From: Thermoplasmata archaeon
GTDB lineage: Archaea > Thermoplasmatota > Thermoplasmata > Thermoplasmatales > Thermoplasmataceae
NCBI GenBank assembly: GCA_021790415.1
Contig: JAJYDZ010000065.1
Location: 1-7,830, forward strand
Length of the DNA stretch: 7,830 nt
Direction: 5' to 3'
A program made the translations under genes and the position numbers. The notes below the pieces were generated by a model, which had not been told where the DNA came from, made no database searches, and worked only from the letters and a program-made list of their open reading frames with translations. This document shows, piece after piece, positions 2,068 through 2,156 of the stretch (positions are counted from its first letter, which is position 1; each line of letters begins with the position of its first letter).

Positions 2068-2076
2068 GATTTATGT
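2068..2076 (+). promoter_or_regulatory. TATA-like element of the C/D box sRNA
   Basis: The plus strand reads GATTTATGT, centred near 2072. The first base of the sRNA terminal stem is at 2098, 26 bases away, which is the usual archaeal TATA-to-start distance. The element also sits in a small inverted repeat, CATAA-gat-TTATG (2063-2075). Confidence 0.4.
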
Positions 2077-2097: not shown

Positions 2098-2156
2098 ACC
2101 GCGATGATGAACAACTTCTGGCTGATCTATGATGTCTGACGGGCAATCTGAGCGGT
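2098..2156 (+). ncRNA. C/D box 2'-O-methylation guide sRNA
   Basis: All four boxes are present in order with canonical spacing: C box ATGATGA (2104-2110), an 11-base guide (2111-2121), D' box CTGA (2122-2125), a 3-base spacer, C' box ATGATGT (2129-2135, one base off consensus), a 12-base guide (2136-2147) and D box CTGA (2148-2151). The flanks ACCGC (2098-2102) and GCGGT (2152-2156) pair perfectly into a 5-bp terminal stem, completing the C/D kink-turn that L7Ae would bind. Nop5 and fibrillarin would complete the RNP. Overall length (59 nt) is typical of archaeal C/D sRNAs. The D guide contains TGACGGGC, complementary to the universal GCCCGUCA of 16S rRNA. No protein gene overlaps it. Expression and target are inferred; the box architecture is directly seen. 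Confidence 0.88.

Follow-up and report, generated by a model that had tools for sequence, protein, structure and literature searches.

Is the short segment that lies between glyA and a run of metal-site miniproteins in this archaeal DNA a functional guide RNA gene, and if so, which nucleotide does it address? The window analysed here is the whole stretch of 7,830 nucleotides, and the segment covers 59 nt of its + strand (2098..2156). Read directly from the sequence, it opens with the 5' arm of a terminal stem (ACCGC, 2098..2102), followed by a C box (ATGATGA, 2104..2110), an 11-nt D' guide (ACAACTTCTGG, 2111..2121), a D' box (CTGA, 2122..2125), a 3-nt D'-C' spacer (TCT, 2126..2128), a C' box (ATGATGT, 2129..2135) whose last base departs from the RUGAUGA consensus, a 12-nt D guide (CTGACGGGCAAT, 2136..2147), a D box (CTGA, 2148..2151) and a 3' arm (GCGGT, 2152..2156) that forms 5 bp with the 5' arm, all on the + strand. 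Boxes, guides, spacer and stem thus lie where the preliminary description had placed them, and their arrangement is that of archaeal C/D box RNAs: terminal C and D boxes, internal C' and D' boxes, two guides within the expected range of about 10-13 nt, a short spacer and a short terminal stem beside the C and D boxes. A motif scan for the four boxes on both strands, in strict and in relaxed form, returned this segment as the single match in the window; the strict form, which was the one applied to simulated sequence, gave 0 matches in 8 Mb generated by an order-2 Markov model of window composition, even without the stem requirement. Both results bear out the earlier claim of a complete C/D box guide sRNA gene.

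In Rfam 15, no family reaches its gathering score on the window. When the threshold was opened on 351 bases, the top matches were the archaeal C/D families sR2 (26.0 bits), sR10 (E 0.0002), sR5, sR9, sR14, sR1 and others, falling on about 2100-2153 and all scoring below gathering. RNAs of this kind recruit L7Ae, Nop5 and fibrillarin to their two box pairs, and fibrillarin methylates the N+5 nucleotide. The window's own genome (G000) encodes fibrillarin (PF01269, E 8.3e-52), as do two of the three other genus genomes compared (G001 and G003); the protein was not found in the third, G002, an assembly that is 88% complete. L7Ae and Nop5 are, to our knowledge, universal in archaea.

The sRNA occupies a gap of 266 bases that is bounded by glyA (SHMT, - strand, 698-1993) on one side and a 51-aa Cys/His-rich ORF (- strand, 2260-2415) on the other, in agreement with the location first given for it, between glyA and the miniprotein region. 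Beyond the ORF lie genes for a CDGSH protein, a KaiC-like ATPase, an enolase-superfamily protein and aconitase, and on the other side one for a PdxT-type (SNO) protein; positions 1-1387 of the window fall outside contig C154 of the G000 assembly (placement -1387-6442). The 51-aa ORF, which is CGCG- and His-rich, stands beside the sRNA in all four genus genomes; its product looks like a small metal-binding protein, had no Pfam match and, when compared with viral contigs, no match there either. Among 30 loci with long flanks (L151-L180), only those of genera g1 and g12 have glyA next to the sRNA, and a KaiC-like gene is near it also in g2 and g17, with a weak match in g5. The remaining 60 order loci were excluded from this comparison, their flanks being too short to judge. 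The sRNA lies upstream of glyA, which reads away from it, and its own predicted transcription runs away from glyA. The TATA-like element noted upstream is present as TTTATG (2070..2075, + strand), 28 to 23 bases upstream of the 5' end, and is identical in 4/4 genus genomes. Upstream of 90 homologs, the A+T fraction lies at 0.53-0.72 in the zone from -60 to -33 and at 0.64-0.87 in the zone from -32 to -21, and TATA-like words have their main peak at -28 (14 genomes). A second, smaller peak at -37 (11 genomes) is unexplained. We regard the raised A+T as suggestive of a promoter, and a promoter role for TTTATG is likewise putative.

The preliminary description had staked the gene on boxes and stem being kept in close relatives, and they are kept in 4/4 genus genomes compared. 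A blastn search found the sRNA stretch in 4 of 41 genomes, namely these four; the same search with 120 bases gave nothing in the 37 genomes outside the genus, for which it was too insensitive. Across the four, all 59 columns are free of gaps, no base differs in the C, D' and D boxes, in TGACGGGCAAT or in the D guide from TGACGGGC through the D box, and the terminal stem pairs in every genome, with one A-U become G-U, while the flanks differ more. This pattern bears on whether the segment could be a chance motif or the decayed remnant of an sRNA in the window's genus. Such a reading could point to the D' guide, which has changed within the genus, to the C' box that is one base off consensus and to the D guide that is imperfect at positions 2-3. 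Against it stand the identity of boxes and D guide amid drifting flanks, the stem that pairs in all four genomes and the empty strict scan of simulated sequence, and we consider it very improbable.

Wider conservation was followed with covariance models. The first (R1), built from the four genus sequences, with GACGGGC guides only, matched 102 of 117 order genomes at E<=1 and 83 at E<=0.01; 90 of the 102 loci were analysed, with 12 weak-match genomes left out, and all 90 parse. Among them the C box is an exact RTGATGA in 88, the D box is CTGA in 89, the C' box has <=1 mismatch in 90/90, the D' box is CTGA in 75, and GA[CT][GA]GGC precedes the D box in every one. The second model (R2) matched 208 of 292 phylum genomes at E<=0.01, a count by score that includes many weaker matches, and left 84 without a match. 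Because both models contain the D guide, which the parse patterns also require, homologs that lost this guide would be under-counted. From the R2 list, 33 loci outside the order were chosen, of which 30 parsed and three (G338, G271 and G119) were judged by eye; A[CT]GGGC is present in the D guide of 32, including G338 and G271, which carry the same guide beside the variant D boxes CAGA and CCGA, and the exception is G119. In 43 representatives, 96.7% of terminal stem cells are paired, and double changes number 38 cells against a shuffled mean of 5.4, in an alignment that was fitted to this stem and so favours the count. Nine order homologs show 1-2 stem pairs in the fixed register; all belong to family f3, where the stem is shifted by one base.

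A strict DNA pattern run over the named GTDB collection recovered 29 stretches, of which 26 come from archaea and 3 from bacteria. The titles of 24 of the archaeal ones name Thermoplasmata/Thermoplasmatota/Thermoplasmatales, Thermoplasma, Thermogymnomonas, Aciduliprofundum or DHVE2, and the other two read 'Euryarchaeota' and uncultured archaeon. The bacterial matches are taken as chance, because about 2 are expected by a hand calculation with uniform base frequencies. The evidence thus supports 2098-2156 as a functional, previously unannotated archaeal C/D box guide sRNA gene, which we predict to be transcribed.

What this RNA may guide emerges from comparing D guides with 16S rRNA. The 16S of the window's genome was not found in its assembly, and that of G003, the only genus member with one, stands in for it. 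Counted from the D box, D guide bases 4-11 (2137-2144 in the window) pair with GCCCGUCA of G003 at the start of helix 44, with mismatches at positions 2 and 3, beside the D box; positions 1-3 are often unpaired across the family, and these mismatches are not peculiar to the window. In a single genome the match carries little information, as 0.877 of 300 shuffled guides match 16S plus 23S as well as the D guide does; the target rests on comparison. In 20 order genomes, guide GACGGGC occurs with 16S GCCCGUC (13/13) and GACAGGC with GCCUGUC (7/7), with no exceptions; that is, guide position 7 (G2141 in the window) and 16S position 1404 form G with C in 13/13 and A with U in 7/7. A 16S tree from which the target bases had been removed requires 5 changes for the guide trait and likewise 5 for the 1404 trait, and in 4/4 independent pairs on well-supported branches the two change together, a sample for which a sign test has a floor of p = 0.125. 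The 20 genomes derive from 25 order genomes with 16S matches, of which 22 gave helix 44; the two of these not used, G034 and G039, had no R1 match.

Outside the order, 19 of 21 genomes with 16S gave helix 44 (G315 and G134 are fragments lacking it), and in 18 of the 19 the guide is fully paired at positions 4-10, with G-U at position 8 in nine. In G119, the D guide of the covariance-model match, ATGACTGGAGCG, does not pair with helix 44 at positions 4 and 7. Taken over all 39 genomes having both sRNA and helix 44, positions 4-10 are paired with N+5 on C1402 (E. coli numbering, taken from rrsB) in 38, and the N+5 pair itself, formed by G2143 in the window, is a Watson-Crick G-C in 39/39. For GATGGGC guides, a compensating 16S change at 1405 was sought and is absent in 9/9, a G-U wobble being present instead; 23S offered nothing convincing as a target of the D guide. 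The comparison supports the 16S nucleotide equivalent to E. coli C1402 as the D guide target, a site newly proposed here and one that the RNA would mark for methylation. As a separate observation, eight of 22 order genomes (G014, G017, G021, G027, G030, G033, G036 and G039) have U at 16S position 1404, and a modification of the 1404 cytidine cannot exist in these lineages. In P. abyssi this position is reported to carry hm5C (PMC7005279), and in Haloferax it is recorded as an unknown C*.

The unremarkable single-genome match would also be expected if the sRNA were real and its D guide acted on another RNA (e.g. tRNA) in place of 16S. The covariation of guide position 7 with 1404 speaks against this, as do scans of the sense strand of tRNA genes from G003 and G000, in which the D guide did not outperform its shuffled versions (0.98 of 200 as good over 64 genes; 0.97 of 300 over 59 G000 genes). 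Moreover, the 11-base complement ATTGCCCGTCA has five exact sites in the four genus genomes, and these are the four sRNAs and one site in G003. An alternative target of this kind therefore appears highly unlikely, and we retain the helix 44 assignment.

The D' guide has had a more varied history. In 60 of the 90 order homologs it contains the core TYAGCC, which fits 16S helix 27; the form ATTCAGCCTTGA pairs 10/10 with CAAGGCUGAA of G003, a match that 0 of 300 shuffles equalled, with N+5 at E. coli G902. Of the 18 genomes whose 16S site is intact, 15 retain this guide, and none of the 4 with an altered site does. It is also carried by G350 and G211, from one family outside the order, and therefore either predates the order or moved. 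That the guides of many of these RNAs fit both helix 27 and helix 44, and that the D' guide follows its 16S site in this way, would suit a real sRNA that mainly chaperones assembly of the 16S decoding centre by pairing with helix 44 (and in relatives also with helix 27), methylation being secondary or absent, and chaperone roles of double guides have been proposed in PMC4644070. However, the N+5 pair is G-C in all 39 genomes, and the nucleotide it addresses carries a 2'-O-methyl group in P. abyssi and eukaryotes, which points to methylation, and the D' guide of the window's genus no longer matches helix 27. We judge a mainly chaperoning role improbable and favour guided methylation of C1402.

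In fourteen of the 90 order homologs, the D' box is found only as ATGA (genera g9, g18 and g19; e.g. L186, L218 and L225), and the D' guide is A/T-rich; the three such genomes with 16S (G011, G020 and G021) have a changed helix 27, CAAGACTGAA. These homologs apparently reflect decay of half a double guide. The window's genus differs, in that the helix 27 site is intact (G003) yet the D' guide is another one, identical in G001, G002 and G003 and altered at 2 places in the window. Against rRNA, neither version has a site better than those of shuffled guides (0.593 of 300 as good for the G003 guide, 0.830 for the window's), and the best rRNA site of the G003 guide, 23S GTAGGGGTTAAA, was set aside on these grounds.

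Among tRNAs, scanned on the sense strand in 64 genes and then in 46 G003 and 59 G000 genes (G000 has 67 tRNA family matches), positions 2-11 of the window's D' guide pair with nucleotides 2-11 of tRNA-Leu(UAG) (two G-U; L348 of G000), and the G003 guide pairs equally with tRNA-Leu(GAG) (two G-U; L120) and with part of tRNA-His. The N+5 position of the leucine pairing is Leu nucleotide 5. As good a pairing was reached by 0.043 (window guide) and 0.027 (G003 guide) of 300 shuffled guides; several target sets were tried, and the fractions carry no correction for this. A different isoacceptor is paired in each genome. G000 and G003 do not differ in the Leu(GAG) and Leu(UAG) stretches concerned, so that there is no covariation between D' guide and tRNA-Leu. 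We offer tRNA-Leu as a weak lead for the target of this guide. A match to tRNA-Met was rejected, as it lies opposite to the gene strand. The D' complement has 21 sites in the four genus genomes, of which 4 are the sRNAs themselves; two groups among the other 17 are uninformative because they lie in orthologous regions that are 83-87% identical over about 3 kb. In the tRNA survey ARAGORN also called tRNA-Asn(GTT) in two forms (L106, L122), one with an intron and one plain; the former is perhaps another tRNA with a misplaced intron, the list containing no tRNA-Trp or tRNA-Tyr.

Taken together, we consider it very likely that the window carries a stand-alone, + strand archaeal C/D box sRNA gene whose D guide directs fibrillarin to C1402 of 16S rRNA, with transcription, RNP assembly and methylation being the predicted steps. 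The C/D and C'/D' boxes would fold into kink-turns, the RNA would, like others of its family, bind L7Ae, Nop5 and fibrillarin, the D guide would pair with 16S at the top of helix 44, and fibrillarin would methylate the 2'-OH of the C1402 equivalent in the P-site decoding region. The reading as a guide sRNA gene, put forward at the outset, finds support in the boxes, the stem covariation, the relatives across the phylum and the guide-target covariation in 16S. In the window's genus, the D' guide to helix 27 (G902) has been replaced. A broader history can be sketched tentatively, although it is less likely than not: one vertically inherited guide might have kept fibrillarin on C1402 since early Thermoplasmatota, its sequence changing to compensate whenever 16S mutated at 1404; it might have begun as a double guide joining helix 27 (G902) and helix 44 (C1402), with the D' half freed in several lineages, including the window's, and re-aimed at a non-ribosomal target, perhaps the acceptor stem of leucine tRNAs.

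Published surveys give this family some context. The 2'-O-methylated Cm1376 of P. abyssi corresponds to E. coli m4Cm1402, yeast Cm1639 and human Cm1703 (Table 4 of PMC7005279), and is numbered 1369 in PMC11542601. PMC4644070, which covers 719 sites, describes predictions in helix 44 as sparse and gives sites at 1408 and 1494; 1402 does not occur in its text as far as this was searched. A review (PMC7994747) describes accelerated evolution of guides and no position common to all seven species surveyed, as far as its accessible sections go; against that background, the broad retention of a guide that covaries with its rRNA target is notable. We found no description of the sRNA family in the open-licence papers searched, where among the matches listed no title concerned Thermoplasmatales C/D sRNAs. 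The machine itself would be an ordinary one, but the RNA appears to belong to a family that is broadly retained within one phylum and has a target assigned by covariation and, for the window's member, no Rfam 15 match at gathering strength. It provides a candidate guide RNA, across an archaeal phylum, for a nucleotide that is reported as 2'-O-methylated in E. coli (by protein), in eukaryotes (snoRNA-guided in plants) and in Pyrococcus abyssi. The covariance model could serve to annotate the sRNA gene in many Thermoplasmatota genomes, and the sRNA offers a simple way to test what Cm1402 does in archaea.

Compared with known systems, the window's RNA shares with the archaeal C/D sRNAs of Rfam (sR2, sR10, sR5 and sR14) its box order, spacing, guide lengths and short terminal stem, and is set apart from the sR families by score, its six best matches lying at 21.5-26 bits vs gathering scores of 36-45. 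Among eukaryotic snoRNAs, SNORD43 guides the human site and snR70 the yeast site. U43/SNORD43 and snR70 share with the window's RNA its proposed target nucleotide, the equivalent of E. coli C1402 (PMC7005279, PMC11542601), and AtU43 is the snoRNA named for the plant site (PMC11542601). They are eukaryotic snoRNAs, unlike the window's RNA, and the likeness described here is one of target nucleotide. In bacteria, RsmI (with RsmH) acts on the same nucleotide, carrying out 2'-O-methylation of 16S C1402 (PMC7694415, PMC11542601). Unlike the sRNA, whose D guide would bring fibrillarin to this site, RsmI is a stand-alone protein enzyme that works without a guide RNA.
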